Origin: Marivita sp. GX14005
GTDB taxonomy: Bacteria; Pseudomonadota; Alphaproteobacteria; Rhodobacterales; Rhodobacteraceae
Length of the DNA stretch: 64,000 nucleotides
Assembly (NCBI RefSeq): GCF_023370775.1
Contig: NZ_JAMCCQ010000003.1
Coordinates: 186,001 to 250,000 of the forward strand
Reading direction: 5' to 3'
The notes below the pieces were generated by a model, which worked only from the letters and a program-made list of their open reading frames with translations, ran no database searches and was not told the DNA's origin. The position numbers and the translations under genes were made by a program. Positions within the stretch are counted from its first letter, which is position 1; every line of letters starts with the position of its first letter. This document shows positions 9,233 to 48,700 of this stretch, one piece after another.

Positions 9233-10291
9233 TCAGGTGCCGCGGGCGAAACCGTGGAAGAAATCCTCGAAATGACGCGATGAGAGTTCGGCCTGCGCCA
9301 GAACGTCCATGGCCTGCGGGGAAAGCGCGTCTTCCATATAGGGCCGCATCGACAACCAGTCGCCGCTGCGCCCTTCGTCGAGATTGAACATCGCCTCGGA
9401 CATCTCGCGCATGGGCGTGGCGCGGGCGTCACTGCGGTCAAAGCGCATCCGGCCTTGCGTGAAGCCCTTGGCGAAGGCGGCATCGCCTGCGGTGGCCTGG
9501 TGCCAGTTGCAGACCAGGAATTCGTGGTAGTCGTCCTGGATGCTCACGTCTTCCCCCGGCGTGACCGCAAAGAGCGCGGTTTCGCGTTTCAGCCAATCGG
9601 TCCACATCGGCGGCGGCGTATCGCCGGCGTGGCGCAGCGCGATGCAGATTTCCGACAGAAGATCGGCATTCTGCTCGATGAAGGCCAGAAGCCCGGCGAA
9701 ATGCAGGCTGCGCTTCGCCGCTTCGTCGAGTTGCGGATCGCGGCGGCCGTATTCGCTGAGATAGAAGACGATATGTGTCAGCTCATAGGCCGCCTTCTTG
9801 TTCGGCAGCGCGAATGTGTCGGAACGCGCCATGAACTCGCGCACGCGGCTGTGCAGCGCCGGAATGTCGCCCCTGGGCGTGATGCCGCGCCGCGCCATCA
9901 GGCGCACCGCTTCAAGCCGCTGCAGATCGGAAAGCTCCGCCTGCGGAAGGTTTTGCGCCTCCGTCCAGCGCACCAGCGCCTCCGCCGTGTCCCCGGCCAT
10001 GCCGAGATCTTCCAGATCGAGCGCGATGGACAGGAAGAAGCGGTAATATTGCGGGAAAAAGCGCATCCGCTTTTCGATGCTGCGGTAGAATTCGACATAG
10101 GGCGCGAGCGCAGCCTCGCCCGGTGCGGCCCCCGTGCATTCCAGGATATTCAGGATCTCGGCGTTTTCCTTGAGCCAGAACACATCGTCGCCAAAGCGCC
10201 GGTGATCGGCAAAGCAGCCCAGAAGCGCGCCGAGACGCGCTTCGGGAGTGTCGATCCGGGACGGGGGGGTAAGTTGAATGACATTAGTCAT
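9233..10291 (-). CDS. uncharacterised helical protein, partner of the repeat peptide gene
   Basis: A 352-residue protein that I cannot assign to a characterised family. It has no signal peptide, membrane segment, nucleotide-binding loop or cysteine cluster, and it looks mostly alpha-helical and soluble. Stretches such as FFPQYYRFFLSIALDLEDLG, KKAAYELTHIVFYLSEYGRRD and EFLVCNWHQATAGDAAF look like conserved-core sequence. It lies 56 bp downstream of the tandem-repeat gene on the same strand, with an R1 repeat at its 3' end, so the two probably form a bicistronic unit. It may be one of the Rhodobacteraceae DUF families (DUF6902 comes to mind, unchecked). A role in processing or moving the repeat protein is inference only. 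Confidence 0.8.
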   Translation of the reverse strand: MTNVIQLTPPSRIDTPEARLGALLGCFADHRRFGDDVFWLKENAEILNILECTGAAPGEAALAPYVEFYRSIEKRMRFFPQYYRFFLSIALDLEDLGMAGDTAEALVRWTEAQNLPQAELSDLQRLEAVRLMARRGITPRGDIPALHSRVREFMARSDTFALPNKKAAYELTHIVFYLSEYGRRDPQLDEAAKRSLHFAGLLAFIEQNADLLSEICIALRHAGDTPPPMWTDWLKRETALFAVTPGEDVSIQDDYHEFLVCNWHQATAGDAAFAKGFTQGRMRFDRSDARATPMREMSEAMFNLDEGRSGDWLSMRPYMEDALSPQAMDVLAQAELSSRHFEDFFHGFARGT

Positions 10292-10347
10292 ATCCGTGCC
10301 TCCATTTGGGTCGAAGGACGGGCCGCCCCGTCCCGGGTCGGTTCCGA

Positions 10348-10830
10348 TCAGGACGCCGAGGTGAAGAGCGCGCAGCCTTCGCCCTGATGCGTCTTCTCGA
10401 GCGTGACCGGACCGGACGCCGAAGTGAACGCTTCGACCGCGTTGCCGGTGCTGGCGCCGGAGGTCGTCGGCATGGACGCGGAGGTGAACGCTTCGACCGC
10501 GTTGCCGGTGCTGGCGTCGGAGGTCGTTGGCATGGACGCGGAGGTGAAGGCCTCGACAGCGTCGCCGGTGCTGGCGCCGGAGGTCGTCGGCATGGACGCG
10601 GAGGTGAACGCTTCGACCGCGTTGCCGGTGCTGGCGACGGAGGTCGTCGGCATGGACGCGGAGGTGAACGCCTCTACGGCGCTGCCCAGGAACGCGCAGC
10701 TGCCGAGCGGGCCCGAGGCCGAGGTGTAGAGCGCGGTCGCATCGCCCTCGTGAATATCGCTGTGGCCGGCAATATTGCGCTGATCCTGCACGAAGAATTC
10801 GGTAGTCTGGATTTTACGAACTGCGGTCAT
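10348..10830 (-). CDS. small protein with four 20-residue tandem repeats (xTSAS motif)
   Basis: A 160-residue protein starting MTAVRKIQTTEFFVQDQRN. The ATG at 10830 is preceded by AAAGGAGG at ideal spacing; a longer frame to 10932 lacks this. After a 30-residue leader-like region come four contiguous 20-residue units (AVEAFTSASMPTTSxASTGN), flanked by degenerate ones. The motif [FY]TSAS occurs seven times, and the protein ends exactly at FTSAS. The body has almost no lysine or arginine and is rich in Ser, Thr and Ala, without a signal peptide. Candidate readings are a multi-core precursor peptide, a low-complexity surface or storage protein, or a scaffold. A DUF6749-like family is possible (memory, unchecked). 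Function unknown. Confidence 0.8.
   Translation of the reverse strand: MTAVRKIQTTEFFVQDQRNIAGHSDIHEGDATALYTSASGPLGSCAFLGSAVEAFTSASMPTTSVASTGNAVEAFTSASMPTTSGASTGDAVEAFTSASMPTTSDASTGNAVEAFTSASMPTTSGASTGNAVEAFTSASGPVTLEKTHQGEGCALFTSAS
10441..10680. repeat. four tandem 60-bp coding repeats
   Basis: Four head-to-tail copies of exactly 60 bp (10441, 10501, 10561, 10621) differ from each other at only a few positions. Each encodes one 20-residue unit of the gene on the minus strand. The near-identity at DNA level, including third positions, indicates recent duplication or gene conversion. There are no spacers, so this is not a CRISPR array. Confidence 0.95.
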
Positions 10831-10924
10831 TGGTGCCTCCTTTGGCGTGGTTGATGGAGACAGGCTGGCACGCAAAAATTGAAGTTGAGAAGATAAATTC
10901 TTGCTTAGGATGTGTTGCCGCAGG

Positions 10925-11008
10925 TTATCCACATGAACACTCTCCTATAGGTTGTTTTGACGTCAGGTGAGTTTTGGTTATCCACATGAGCGAAAAAACT
11001 GGGGATAA
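10925..11008. promoter_or_regulatory. DnaA-box cluster upstream of the repeat gene
   Basis: Two perfect TTATCCACA boxes lie in direct orientation at 10925-10933 and 10978-10986. A one-mismatch box TTATCCCCA lies on the other strand (11000-11008). The surrounding 10831-11174 interval has no credible gene and is AT-rich for this genome (runs such as TTGTTTTGACG and GAAAAAACT). It separates the divergent repeat gene and xth. DnaA-regulated transcription or a DnaA-titration site fits better than an origin, since no origin-linked genes are nearby. Confidence 0.6.
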
Positions 11009-17728: not shown

Positions 17729-17811
17729 TCCTGTAGAAAAACGGTTTTTGCCTTTCGCCACCCAATCTCCGACGCTATAGCGGGCGGAGAATCTTGCAGG
17801 AGAGATGGGTC

Positions 17812-18816
17812 ATGACAGTCACACTTGGGATCAACGGGTTCGGGCGGATCGGCCGCTCCACGCTGGCACATATCGCCGAAAGCTCGCGCAATGACGTTCA
17901 GGTGGTGAAGATCAACGCCACCGGCCCGATCGAGACCAACGCCCATCTTTTGCGCTATGACAGCGTGCATGGCCGGTTCGGCGGCGACGTGAAGGTGAGC
18001 GGCGACACGATGGATCTCGGGCGCGGCCCGATGAAGGTGTTCTCGACCTACGATCCGTCCGAGCTCGACTGGTCCGGCTGCGACGTGGTGCTGGAATGCA
18101 CGGGCAAGTTCAACGATGGCGACAAGGCCGGCATCCATATGGAGCGCGGCGCGAAATCGGTTCTGATCTCGGCACCTGCGAAAAACGTGCAGAAAACCGT
18201 TGTCTACGGCGTCAACCACCGCGATCTTGCGGCGGGGGACGTGATGATCTCGAACGGCTCCTGCACGACGAATTGCCTTGCACCGCTGGCCAAGGTGCTG
18301 GACGAGGCCATCGGCATCGAGAGCGGCGTCATGACGACGATCCATTCCTATACCGGCGATCAGCCGACGCTGGACCGGCGTCACAAGGATCTCTACCGCG
18401 CCCGCGCCGCTGCGATGGCGATGATTCCGACCTCGACCGGCGCGGCAAAGGCGCTTGGCGAAGTGCTGCCGAACCTCAGGGGCAAGCTCGACGGTTCCGC
18501 CATGCGTGTGCCGACGCCGAATGTCTCGGCGGTCGATCTGACCTTCTATGCAGGCAAGGACGTGACCGTCGAGAACGTCAACGAGGTGGTTCGCGAGGCT
18601 GCGGCGACGCATATGGGCACGGTGCTGTCCTATGATCCCGAACCCAAGGTCTCGATCGATTTCAACCACACCACGCACAGCTCGATCTTCGCGCCGGACC
18701 AGACCAAGGTCGTCGGCAAGCGCATGGTGCGCGTGCTGGCCTGGTATGACAACGAATGGGGCTTCTCGGCGCGCATGGCCGATGTCGCCGGTGCAATGGG
18801 TCGGCTTCTGCACTGA
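17812..18816 (+). CDS. gap: glyceraldehyde-3-phosphate dehydrogenase, probable NADP-preferring paralogue
   Basis: A 334-residue GAPDH (Gap1 here). It has the nucleotide-binding [10 protein letters not shown] (residues 7-16) and catalytic Cys151 in [13 protein letters not shown]. The residue after Asn35 that is Asp in NAD-dependent enzymes is Ala36 (KINATGPIE). The segment that is LP in Bacillus enzymes is Arg189-Arg190 (TLDRRHKD). Loss of the ribose-binding Asp plus added positive charge is the pattern expected for NADP use, as in gluconeogenic or Calvin-cycle GAPDHs; this is inference. The start follows GGAGAG by eight bases. Two operator-like sites lie upstream and a double-hairpin repeat lies downstream. 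Confidence 0.95.
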   Translation: MTVTLGINGFGRIGRSTLAHIAESSRNDVQVVKINATGPIETNAHLLRYDSVHGRFGGDVKVSGDTMDLGRGPMKVFSTYDPSELDWSGCDVVLECTGKFNDGDKAGIHMERGAKSVLISAPAKNVQKTVVYGVNHRDLAAGDVMISNGSCTTNCLAPLAKVLDEAIGIESGVMTTIHSYTGDQPTLDRRHKDLYRARAAAMAMIPTSTGAAKALGEVLPNLRGKLDGSAMRVPTPNVSAVDLTFYAGKDVTVENVNEVVREAAATHMGTVLSYDPEPKVSIDFNHTTHSSIFAPDQTKVVGKRMVRVLAWYDNEWGFSARMADVAGAMGRLLH

Positions 18817-18848
18817 CTCTGTCCAAACCGAGCCACGGTGATCGCGGG

Positions 18849-18894
18849 CCCGGATGCGTCGACGCATCCGGGTCTTTTCTTTGAAGAAAAGACC
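18849..18894. repeat. double-hairpin intergenic repeat, copy C
   Basis: A perfect 24-nt palindrome (18849-18872, core CGGATGCGTCGACGCATCCG) shares two bases with a second perfect hairpin of ten-base arms (GGTCTTTTCT/AGAAAAGACC, 18871-18894). It lies 32 bp after the gap1 stop. Confidence 0.8.
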
Positions 18895-18973
18895 CTGCGC
18901 AGCGGCCCGGATCGGGCGTGACAATACGGCGGCGCTCTGTCAGGATCGTGCCAAACGCAGGACCGAGGGCTTC

Positions 18974-19117
18974 ATGACCAACAGTATCGCGATCGGGCTG
19001 GGAACGCTGATCCTTGCGGGCATCGCGGTCGATCTTGCCGTCAGCGGCGGCGATGGCGCGCTGTTTCTTGCGGCCAAGGGTCTCGATCTGCTCGATTGGG
19101 TGGCGTTCTGGCGCTAG
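18974..19117 (+). CDS. small membrane protein between the two GAPDH genes
   Basis: A 47-residue protein starting MTNSIAIGLGTLILAGIAVD and ending DLLDWVAFWR. It has one hydrophobic helix (residues 4-22) and a second amphipathic region ending in an aromatic tail. Its position between gap1 and gap2 and its clean reading frame argue that it is real. The ribosome site is poor (GAGGGCTTC). No function is known to me. A membrane anchor or regulator of a neighbour is possible but unsupported. Confidence 0.6.
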   Translation: MTNSIAIGLGTLILAGIAVDLAVSGGDGALFLAAKGLDLLDWVAFWR

Positions 19118-19155
19118 GCCGGATCCGGTCTTGACTTGCATGCGCCGCGCGCGAT

Positions 19156-19169
19156 TGTTAGCGGTAACG
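19156..19169. promoter_or_regulatory. LacI-type operator-like site before gap2
   Basis: TGTTAGCGGTAACG is a 12 of 14 match to TGTTAGCGCTAACA, with both half-sites recognisable. It lies 39 bp before the gap2 start, where a repressor would block transcription. Confidence 0.55.
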
Positions 19170-19207
19170 CAACCGGCGGCTCCGCCGATCAAGCGAGGAA
19201 AGAGGAT

Positions 19208-20209
19208 ATGACCACGAAAGTTGCCATCAACGGATTTGGCCGCATCGGCCGCAACATCCTGCGCGCGATCATCGAATCCGGCCGCACGGATATCGAGGTG
19301 GTCGCGATCAACGATCTCGGCCCCGTCGAGACGAATGCCCATCTGCTGCAATTCGACAGCGTTCACGGCCGGTTTCCCGCCGAGGTCAAAACCTCGGAAG
19401 ACAGCATCGATGTGGGGCGCGGCCCGATCAAGGTCACGGCAGAGCGCAATCCCGCCGATCTGCCTTGGTCCGACGTGGATGTGGTGCTGGAATGCACCGG
19501 CATCTTCACCTCGAAAGACGCGGCGCAGGCGCATCTGGAAAACGGCGCCAGTCGCGTTTTGATTTCGGCTCCGGGCAAGGATGCGGACAAGACCATTGTC
19601 TATGGCGTCAACCACGAGACGCTGACCGCCGATGACCATATCGTCTCGAACGCCTCCTGCACGACCAATTGCCTCGCGCCGGTGGCTTATGTCCTGAACG
19701 AGGCCATCGGGATCGAGCGCGGCTTCATGACGACGATCCATTCCTATACCGGCGACCAGCCGACGCTCGACACGATGCACAAGGATCTCTACCGCGCCCG
19801 CGCCGCCGCGCTCAGCATGATCCCGACTTCCACCGGCGCGGCCAAGGCGGTGGGGCTTGTCCTGCCCGAGTTGAACGGCAAGCTCGACGGCGTGGCGATC
19901 CGCGTGCCGACGCCGAATGTCTCGGTCGTCGATCTGACCTTCACCGCGTCGCGCGACACCAGCCTGGATGAGATCAACGACGCGATCCGCAGCGCGGCGG
20001 ATGGCAAGCTCAAGGGCATTCTCGGCTATACCGACCGCAAGCTGGTCTCCTCGGATTTCAACCACGATCCCCATTCCTCGATCTTCGCCACCGATCAGAC
20101 CAAGGTGATGGACGGCACGATGGTGCGAATCCTGACCTGGTATGACAATGAATGGGGCTTCTCCAATCGCATGGCCGATACCGCCGTGGCGATGGGCAAG
20201 CTCATCTGA
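19208..20209 (+). CDS. gap: glyceraldehyde-3-phosphate dehydrogenase, NAD-type paralogue
   Basis: A 333-residue GAPDH (Gap2 here), about the same length as Gap1 and clearly homologous throughout. Catalytic Cys151 is in [13 protein letters not shown]. Asp36 (AINDLGPVE) is retained, as expected for an NAD-dependent catabolic enzyme, and residues 189-190 are Thr-Met instead of Arg-Arg. A purine-rich AGGAAAGAGG precedes the ATG. The strong conservation of the NAHLL...DSVHGRF and TGDQPTLD segments shows the pair arose by duplication. Confidence 0.96.
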
Positions 20210-45769: not shown

Positions 45770-48700
45770 TCATGCCTCCTTGGAAATGTCAAAACGAACC
45801 TCAAACCTTCCTCAGCGTAATGGACCTGCGCATCTCCATCAAGATCGCTTGCGACCACCTGGTTGAGAACCACGCTGCCGAAGCCGCGCCGTTCGGGCGG
45901 CGCTTCGATTTTCGGGCCGCCCGTTTCGATCCATTCGATCCGCACCGTTTCGCCCGTTTCGGAGACCTTCAGCACGATCCGGCCTTCGGAGTCGGACAGC
46001 GCTCCGTATTTGGCCGAATTGGTCGCAAGTTCATGAAACGCCATGCCCAGCGATTGCGCCTGCGAGGCGGCGATCGGAACATCCGGCCCGTCGATCGTGA
46101 ATGCGGCACCTCCCTCGGGGCGATAGGGGCTGAGTTCGGCTTCGACGAGCGCCGACAGCGGAACGGTGCGCCATTCCTGCGCCGTCAGCAGATCATGCGT
46201 CCGGGCCAGAGCGTTGAGCCGGGACGCAAGACGCTTCTGGTAATCCTCGGGCGAGCTGGCGGTGCGCAGCAGGAGTTTGGAGACCGCATTGATCGTCGCC
46301 AGCGTGTTCTTGACGCGGTGCTGCAACTCGCGCAGCAGGATGGTCTGACGTTCGGATTGCGCCTCGATGCGGTCTATCAGCCGTTTCTGTTCGGTCACTT
46401 CGCGCACACAGGTGCCGACTGCGAAGACCTCGCCATTCGATCGGATCGGATAGAAATCGCATAGCCAATGCCGCTCGACGCCCGGCTGGCTTGCGGTTTC
46501 GCCGCTGATCGGTGTGTCCAGGATCGCCTCGCCCGTGTCAAAGACGTGGCGGTATTTCGGCTCGAGCGTATCGGCGAGATCGGGCAGAAGCTCGCGCAAC
46601 GTCTTGCCTTCGTAATGTTCGGCGGTGATGCCGTTGATTTCAGCCAGATGAGCGTTGATCCTCAACCATCGCAGGTCACGCGACATGAGCGACAGGCCAA
46701 CCGGCGTGGTATCGTAGAGGTTTTCGAGCTCGGCATATTGCCGGGCCATCTGTTCCTCGTGCGCGATAAGCTGGTTTTCACTGCGCTTCCGGTTGGTGAT
46801 ATCGATGAAGGACAGCACGTACCCGTCGATCTGGTTCTGAACGGTGCGATACGGCTTGATGCGCAGAAGAAAGGTCTCGTCCGTCGCCGCGATGTTCAAC
46901 TCCCGTTCGAGCGATTGCAGGGTTTCATCGACGCGCTGCGCATCCTCCTTCAAGCCCGGATAGTCGAAACGCGAGGACAGATCGAAGATCGGGCGCCCGA
47001 TATCGCGTTCGCGGATGCCGAAGATCTCGGTCGTGGCCGGGGTGTAGCTGCGCACGCAAAAGGCGCGATCGAGAAACAACACCGCGATATCGGTCGAATC
47101 GAAAAGGTTCTTGAGATCGGAATTCGCGCGGTGCAGCTGGCGATTGTTTTCCTGCAGCTCGGCATTGACCGTTTCCAGCTCCTCATTGATCGATTGCAGC
47201 TCCTCGCGGCTGGTTTCGAGCTCTTCGTTGGAGCTTTGCAGCTCCTCGTTCATCGACAGCAATTCCTCGTTGGAGCTTTTCAACTCCTGCCCTGATGTCT
47301 CGAACTCCTGCAGGGCGGCAGCCAGCTGTCGGCGCAGGTTGAAATTCTCGACCTCCAGCATGTCGCGATCGATGTCCTGGCGCGCGGTGATCGCCACATC
47401 CACCGATGAGGTATCGACGGCATTCACCTCGTTCAGCGTCAGCAGGAACTGATCGCCATCATGCAAGGTCGGTGCAAGCCGGATGTCGAAGAAGCGCACG
47501 ATCCCGTCATCCTCGACGAGCACGCTGTCGCTGCGCACATTCGCGCCGCTGTCCTTGGCCTCCTTCAACGCCGCGCGGACGGGAACGCGCAACTCGCGTG
47601 CGAGATAGGCATCGATGTCCGTGGACGGCGTTCCGTGCGAGGGCTTGATGAACCGCGCCATCTTTTCGCTGAGATAGATCACCTCGCCATCGCCGGAAAT
47701 CAGCGCGAACGGGGCGGCGTGCTGCCTGAGGAATTCCCGCTCCGCGCTGGCCTCGCGTGAATATTCCGGTGCCGCAATCTGCGCCGAGGCGATCCGCCCG
47801 CCGGTCCATGGGCGCGCGCTGACCCCCTTCTGGGGCAACGGATCGCGCAGCGCCGAATAGCGCGTCTCGGCATCGGGGTTCTTGACAAAGATGCGATGTG
47901 TCTTGTCCAGTGTCCTGAACAGATCGTCCCCTCCCGAAATCCCTTCGGATGGGCCGAGGAACAAGACGCCCTCCGGCTTGAGCGAGAAATGCAGTCTTGG
48001 CATCACGCGGGCCTGCAGATCGCTCGTCATGTAGATCAGCAGATTTCGGCAGGAAATCAGATCGAGACGTGAAAAGGGCGGATCCTGAACGAGGTTATGC
48101 GGCGCGAAAACGCAACATTCGCGCAATGACGGAACGGCGCGGAACTGGCCGTTTTCGGGGGTGAAATACTTGTCGCGCAGATCGCGCGGAATCCGCTCCA
48201 GCGCGGCCGAGGTATAAAGCCCCCCTCGCGCCGCCATGAGCGCGGGCGAGTCGATATCGGTGCCGAAGAGCTGCAGAACCTGCCGGCCCTCGGCACGCTC
48301 CAATTCCTCGTTGAGCAGGATCGCCAGGGAATAGACCTCTTCCCCGGTGGAGCAGCCGGGCACCCAGACGCGGATATTGCGCTGATCGCGCGCGACGATC
48401 TGGCAAAGCACCTTCTCGCGCAACGCTTCGAAGCTGGCGGGATCGCGGAAGAACTGGGTGACGCCGATCAGAAATTCCTGAGCGAGGATGCGGGCCTGCG
48501 CTTCGTCCTCGTCCAGAAGCGCGAGAAACCTGTCGAGATCCGCGATCCGAAGCAACGCCATCCGCCGCTCAATTCGCCGGACCAGCGTTCCGGGCTTGTA
48601 GTCGGAAAAATCGTTGCCCGACACGGCGGCCAGCCGTTCCGTGATGCGTTCGATATTGTTCTTGATCGCGTCTTGAAGCCGGTCGCGCGCAGTGTCGCCC

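Follow-up and report, generated by a model that had tools for sequence, protein, structure and literature searches.

A tandem-repeat peptide gene and its DUF6902 partner in Marivita: a candidate two-gene pathway for a modified ribosomal peptide

What is the function of a bacterial gene that encodes near-identical short peptide units up to its very last codon, and of the larger gene that follows it on the same strand? This question is raised by two genes in a stretch of 64 000 nt (referred to as the window) from Marivita sp. GX14005 (contig NZ_JAMCCQ010000003.1, positions 186 001–250 000). With moderate confidence we favor a two-gene pathway resembling those of ribosomally synthesized and post-translationally modified peptides (RiPPs), in which a DUF6895-type enzyme with a toroid-like structure, most likely a peptide epimerase, would modify a multi-core precursor. 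That the operon encodes a multi-core substrate and an enzyme modifying it appears likely, whereas epimerization as the chemistry is proposed tentatively. The operon comprises the following features (window coordinates):

10348..10830, minus strand: repeat precursor gene, 160 aa, open reading frame from the ATG at 10830 to the stop codon ending at 10348
10747..10830, minus strand: leader-like N-terminus without repeats, residues 1–28 (the ATG precedes the G of the first unit by 84 nt)
10414..10686, minus strand: 60-bp tandem repeat array within the precursor gene, found with Tandem Repeats Finder (TRF)
10836..10843, minus strand: Shine-Dalgarno-like sequence AAAGGAGG, directly 5' of the precursor ATG, recognized by eye
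9233..10291, minus strand: gene of the partner, a DUF6902 protein of 352 aa and kin of DUF6895, predicted to be all-helical and toroid-like; proposed peptide-modifying enzyme

The open reading frames agree with the first-pass annotation, which had described a protein of 160 residues with about 30 unrepeated N-terminal residues (about 28 by our count) followed by repeats, and a partner gene 56 bp downstream. Its 60-bp DNA repeats were recovered by TRF as an array of 4.6 copies with 91% matches, and the seven [FY]TSAS motifs it reported do reach the exact C-terminus: they belong to seven G-x5-[FY]TSAS units, one with YTSAS and six with FTSAS, and the stop codon comes right after the last one. 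The statement that lysine is absent holds for the repeats, but the leader has one lysine, and another, in LEKTHQ, lies close to the C-terminus. Neither a secretion signal nor a Kex2-type site was noticed in the precursor by eye, no predictor having been run.

Next, we considered how widely the two genes occur together. Of 390 genomes sampled from the order, 107 encode DUF6902, spread over 47 of 139 genera; in a set of 101 genomes 27 do so, among them the window genome and all 16 others listed for its genus. We read 108 DUF6902 loci from 107 genomes (L178 and L179 are pieces of one gene) with 54 genus codes by hand count, which cover 87 of the 107 positive genomes of the order sample. In 104 of the 108 loci the DUF6902 gene is preceded by a repeat precursor gene of the same orientation, counting a remnant in the broken locus L161 as well as L099 and L116 with assembly gaps in their repeat genes. 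The four loci without precursor were set by hand: L101 and L178 are cut by contig ends, while L039, which is very divergent, and L141 are true misses at the locus, the rest of these two genomes not having been searched. In the set of named loci the pattern finds the precursor in 78 of 80; of the other two, L220 is interrupted by an assembly gap at this place, and FCSAS units can be recognized by eye in L210. L161 has a decaying copy of the operon, in which the DUF6902 gene appears to be split over several frames and is preceded by a short remnant of the repeats.

The 104 precursors contain 677 units of 11 residues with the pattern G-x5-[F]-x4, also written G-[DE]-x4-[FY]-x4. Proline mostly occupies the second position past the unit (465 of the 677 units), and 73 units end the protein, i.e. 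the protein end is an exact unit end in 73 of the 104 precursors. We compared the codons of 648 units from 101 precursors and observed that differing codons are synonymous in 98.2, 95.9, 94.5 and 95.6% of cases at P2 to P5, the core, compared to a share of 20.6% in the linker (positions +3 to +8); the rule defining a unit is blind to P4 and P5 and limits P2 and P3 to residue classes, and neither the codon pairs nor the box counts given below are independent, as the genomes are related. This comparison was preferred to tables of modal units, which chose units by their likeness to the modal core and thereby favor identity. From the contrast between cores and linkers we conclude that the repeat feature goes beyond chance. 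Silent sites and linkers differ between copies while the core stays the same, so that duplication alone is not the cause. The recent expansion assumed in the first-pass annotation therefore fits the near-identical DNA repeats of the window genome but not the relatives, whose diverged copies still share one core, and the variation in repeat number it anticipated between strains amounts to 5 to 11 units among Marivita genomes. A single tetrad only is present in 84 of the 101 precursors, and the 17 mixed ones include four apparent false linker matches (VSGR, VAGK and VSGG types). Only 296 of 5356 precursor pairs have their modal tetrad in common, and the core tetrad has changed at least 48 times between species on a quick tree in which 43 of 100 inner branches are open. 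In all we count 38 core tetrads (39 modal ones, one of which stems from the broken L161), and Marivita alone has TSAS, TSGS, TSGL, TCGL, MSAS and TTSC. As a separate observation, single precursors of L086, L087, L088, L092, L094 and L096 repeatedly show two nearly adjacent cores with three residues between them (e.g. FTSGLVQMFTSGL).

The partner belongs to the Pfam family DUF6902 (PF21843; 576.6 bits versus a gathering cut-off of 27, residues 1–350), and its closest named relatives are from Marivita, with at best 81% identity in a scan of named genomes that may exclude the window's own record. It also passes the model of DUF6895 (PF21836; 84.3 bits versus a cut-off of 23.8), with residues 31–229 matching profile positions 21–233 of 289. 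By the title of a 2026 ACS Catal. paper (10.1021/acscatal.5c08590), seen in a reference list, DUF6895 is reportedly a lasso-peptide epimerase family, and the earlier statement that the partner has no known RiPP enzyme motif has to be amended to this extent. Tyr169 and His173 are retained in 101 of 103 DUF6902 proteins, a set that leaves out the partial or broken L101, L159, L161, L178 and L179. Both exceptions are L039 and L141, the loci without precursor; the same two have lost Asp210, and L039 also lacks Glu214 and His256. These two proteins sit apart on the quick tree and represent only two loss events. Five DUF6895 proteins, which are remote relatives, have counterparts of His173, Asp210, Glu214 and [YF]H256 in the alignment, and the roles of these residues are putative. 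Taken together, the linkage in 104 of 108 loci, the joint loss of the precursor and conserved residues and the almost exclusively synonymous divergence of the cores give good support to a precursor with an accessory protein, as the first-pass annotation had suggested.

Searches for other relationships gave little. Against family libraries the window precursor had nothing above cut-off (best DUF5978, E 0.005). A FlmA-family RiPP (NF052472) was suggested by 2 of 38 precursors with a best E of 0.01; in a genome search at E 10 none of 61 was above cut-off, and we rejected this candidate because that search also matched in 8 of 14 control genomes. All other library matches of the 38 precursors carry unrelated names, mostly with one or two members each, and were taken as repeat-driven noise, some having low E values (the best, 7.2e-10, being to a herpesvirus family in one member). 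Sequence searches of the PDB gave no meaningful match with DUF6902 and no match with one DUF6895 protein; the match of another DUF6895 protein to an amino-acid racemase was not significant (E 0.26). Neither protein of the operon matches a PADLOC anti-phage defence model at E 0.1, a scan of viral contigs found no relative, and Rfam has no match between 9000 and 12000 of the window. In the open PMC set we found neither a mention of DUF6902 nor a description of such a system, and DUF6895 is named in a single paper, among its references.

A fold for the partner was first suggested by the DUF6895-like proteins of L264 and L265, which have an N-terminal hydrophobic segment and a QW-like motif (LLGLQDKQGSW). 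The AlphaFold2 model of the DUF6902 partner is all-helical and resembles alpha/alpha toroids, the fold matches (VIA-align, Foldseek ranking) including class II terpene cyclases, the beta subunit of protein farnesyltransferase and complement C3d/C4d. The fold may well be an alpha/alpha toroid. In the model, near-invariant polar residues appear to cluster on every second helix, the arrangement of a toroid that has an active site; this description omits the 4-residue helices 115–118 and 157–160 and uses a test picked after the pattern was seen, which makes its p value descriptive. The eight best matches are all terpene cyclases with 10–13% identity, and no function can be transferred. LanC cyclases are alpha/alpha-toroid proteins as well.

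A linked precursor with leader and core, as expected for RiPPs, is what we observed: the linkage across loci is accompanied by a leader-like N-terminus and repeated cores. In the pathway we favor, the precursor would consist of a short leader and several units, each with its functional core in the four C-terminal residues (TSAS here); DUF6902, as the enzyme, would act on each core, most likely by epimerization at Calpha via Tyr169, His173, Asp210, Glu214 and His256. A protease would then excise the modified short peptide, and in many relatives an EamA permease encoded just downstream would export it. What we observed is the linkage, the joint loss, the constraint on the core, the kinship with DUF6895 and the predicted helical model; catalysis, epimerization, proteolysis, export and any biological role are inferred from these. 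EamA lies directly downstream in 42 of the 108 loci, commonly with a 4-nt overlap, and was confirmed by Pfam in two examples; in 15 further loci an EamA open reading frame overlaps the end of DUF6902, which we take for over-called starts. In L260, from a genome of the class of G281, a GCYT-type repeat gene is followed about 300 bp on by DUF6902, whose end is overlapped by EamA. Several points weigh against this pathway. We saw no product, protease or modification; the Marivita locus has no EamA, and the best EamA paralog of the window genome is only 33% identical; leaders are unlike between genera by eye; L260 and L261 have Phe instead of Tyr at 169; no obvious repeated peptide lies beside the DUF6895 genes of L264 and L265; the toroid match is under the VIA-align caution level (about 13 for helical folds); and the epimerase link of DUF6895 comes from a title. 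A docking scaffold would likewise conserve a repeated core. If the reading is true, the operon represents an undescribed RiPP-like class with an enzyme family in more than a quarter of the sampled genomes of the order, DUF6902 gains a function, the chemistry of DUF6895 extends to multi-core substrates, and the 38 natural core tetrads form a series for enzyme tolerance in a two-gene minimum.

The scaffold just mentioned would be multivalent: its repeats would bind DUF6902 or another partner for regulated assembly, with no peptide product. The many identical motifs per chain and their en-bloc switches between species fit co-evolution with a binding pocket, and no protease gene was seen in the operon. 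However, the alternating-helix pattern of the model resembles a toroid with an active site, the kin family DUF6895 is named an epimerase (by title), the L038 precursor has just two units, and EamA is common downstream; we therefore regard a scaffold as rather unlikely. We give a similarly low probability to an RiPP-like precursor with another acid/base or transfer chemistry on a Ser/Thr/Cys-rich core, such as dehydration, cyclization or prenyltransferase-like transfer. Of 104 modal units, 102 carry S, T or C at P3, and the top fold matches include terpene cyclases and protein farnesyltransferase beta, but no cysteine is conserved in the core, and DUF6895, the only kin with a reported chemistry, is called an epimerase in the title cited. 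A third possibility, a minisatellite that expanded recently and neutrally within some ordinary hypothetical gene, would explain the near-identical DNA repeats of the window genome but hardly the core constraint in relatives, where linkers do diverge, or the linkage to DUF6902, and we consider it very improbable.

Compared with known systems, the operon is closest to DUF6895 loci, some of which outside the order (L043, L044 and L047) adjoin small peptide genes, duplicated or two-unit. DUF6902 is nevertheless a separate Pfam family, its precursor is a long multi-core repeat protein, and its neighbors are homologues of xthA, erpA, dgt and argS. The DUF6895 gene of L174 (G203) lies amid MFS-like transporter, methyltransferase-like and papain-like proteins and two paralogous small peptides (by eye), possibly a larger peptide cluster. 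Yeast alpha-factor and cyanobactins also derive from multi-core precursors. Near-identical cores and spacers in one chain are likewise carried by repeat proteins that fungi process with Kex2 (PMC7329392), whereas the present operon is bacterial and the partner is a DUF6902 protein. MslH, the epimerase of the lasso peptide MS-271, is likened here by description: it epimerizes a residue of a ribosomal peptide, but by a mechanism that its title calls metal-dependent and at a single C-terminal Trp. We do not file the operon as a lasso system but as an RiPP-like pathway. Roseobacters are common in the sea, and many marine members carry such an operon, which seems to yield numerous copies of one short, species-specific peptide and to modify them by an enzyme from a family that has been little studied; it has the look of a class of natural-product or signal-peptide genes not yet described.

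Upstream of the precursor we observed two sites identical to the DnaA box (criterion: exact TTATCCACA/TGTGGATAA):

10925..10933, minus strand: perfect DnaA box TGTGGATAA, lying 103 nt 5' of the precursor ATG
10978..10986, minus strand: second perfect DnaA box, 53 nt farther upstream (156 nt from the ATG), same orientation

The window holds only these two exact boxes, with 0.08 expected, and a pair at 40–70 nt spacing occurs once in the genome searched. In the 450 bp preceding the first unit, 66 of the 104 precursors have a perfect box and 30 have two or more; the 96 boxes compare with 0.45 in shuffles, and their density is 2.07 per kb versus 0.006 in the rest of the loci. Paired boxes are mostly 75–77 or 52–54 nt apart in the same orientation. 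A perfect box is absent in 38 of the 104, and in the named set it is present in 45 of 80 loci, in none of those from Shimia; L260 has none either. These absences weigh against generality. That the boxes belong to the divergent xthA is countered by operon-less relatives, in which the 450 bp in front of xthA are free of boxes (0 of 30 loci, 32 genomes searched). It is also unlikely that the region is oriC: in G179, G831, G507, G640 and G653, where dnaA is found in the first 1400 bases of contig 1, the operon lies at 0.33–0.62 of that contig, and the GC-skew has no clear switch at the operon in the window. The pairs pose the question why putative replication-initiator sites stand at a peptide operon. 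A more speculative reading is a widespread peptide system of roseobacters for signaling or competition, in which each species would make many copies of its own short D-residue peptide, all copies would switch together like pherotypes, and DnaA-controlled output would be tied to replication; we regard it as distinctly doubtful.

The operon occupies a fixed slot, with xthA upstream in 103 of 108 loci and erpA and dgt downstream in 99 each (neighbors named by eye); in the window, xthA is divergent and erpA convergent. Elsewhere in the window, two tandem glyceraldehyde-3-phosphate-dehydrogenase-like genes (by eye) were seen at 17794–20209 on the plus strand, and a 21-bp tandem repeat of 2.5 copies with 81% matches lies at 47153–47205.
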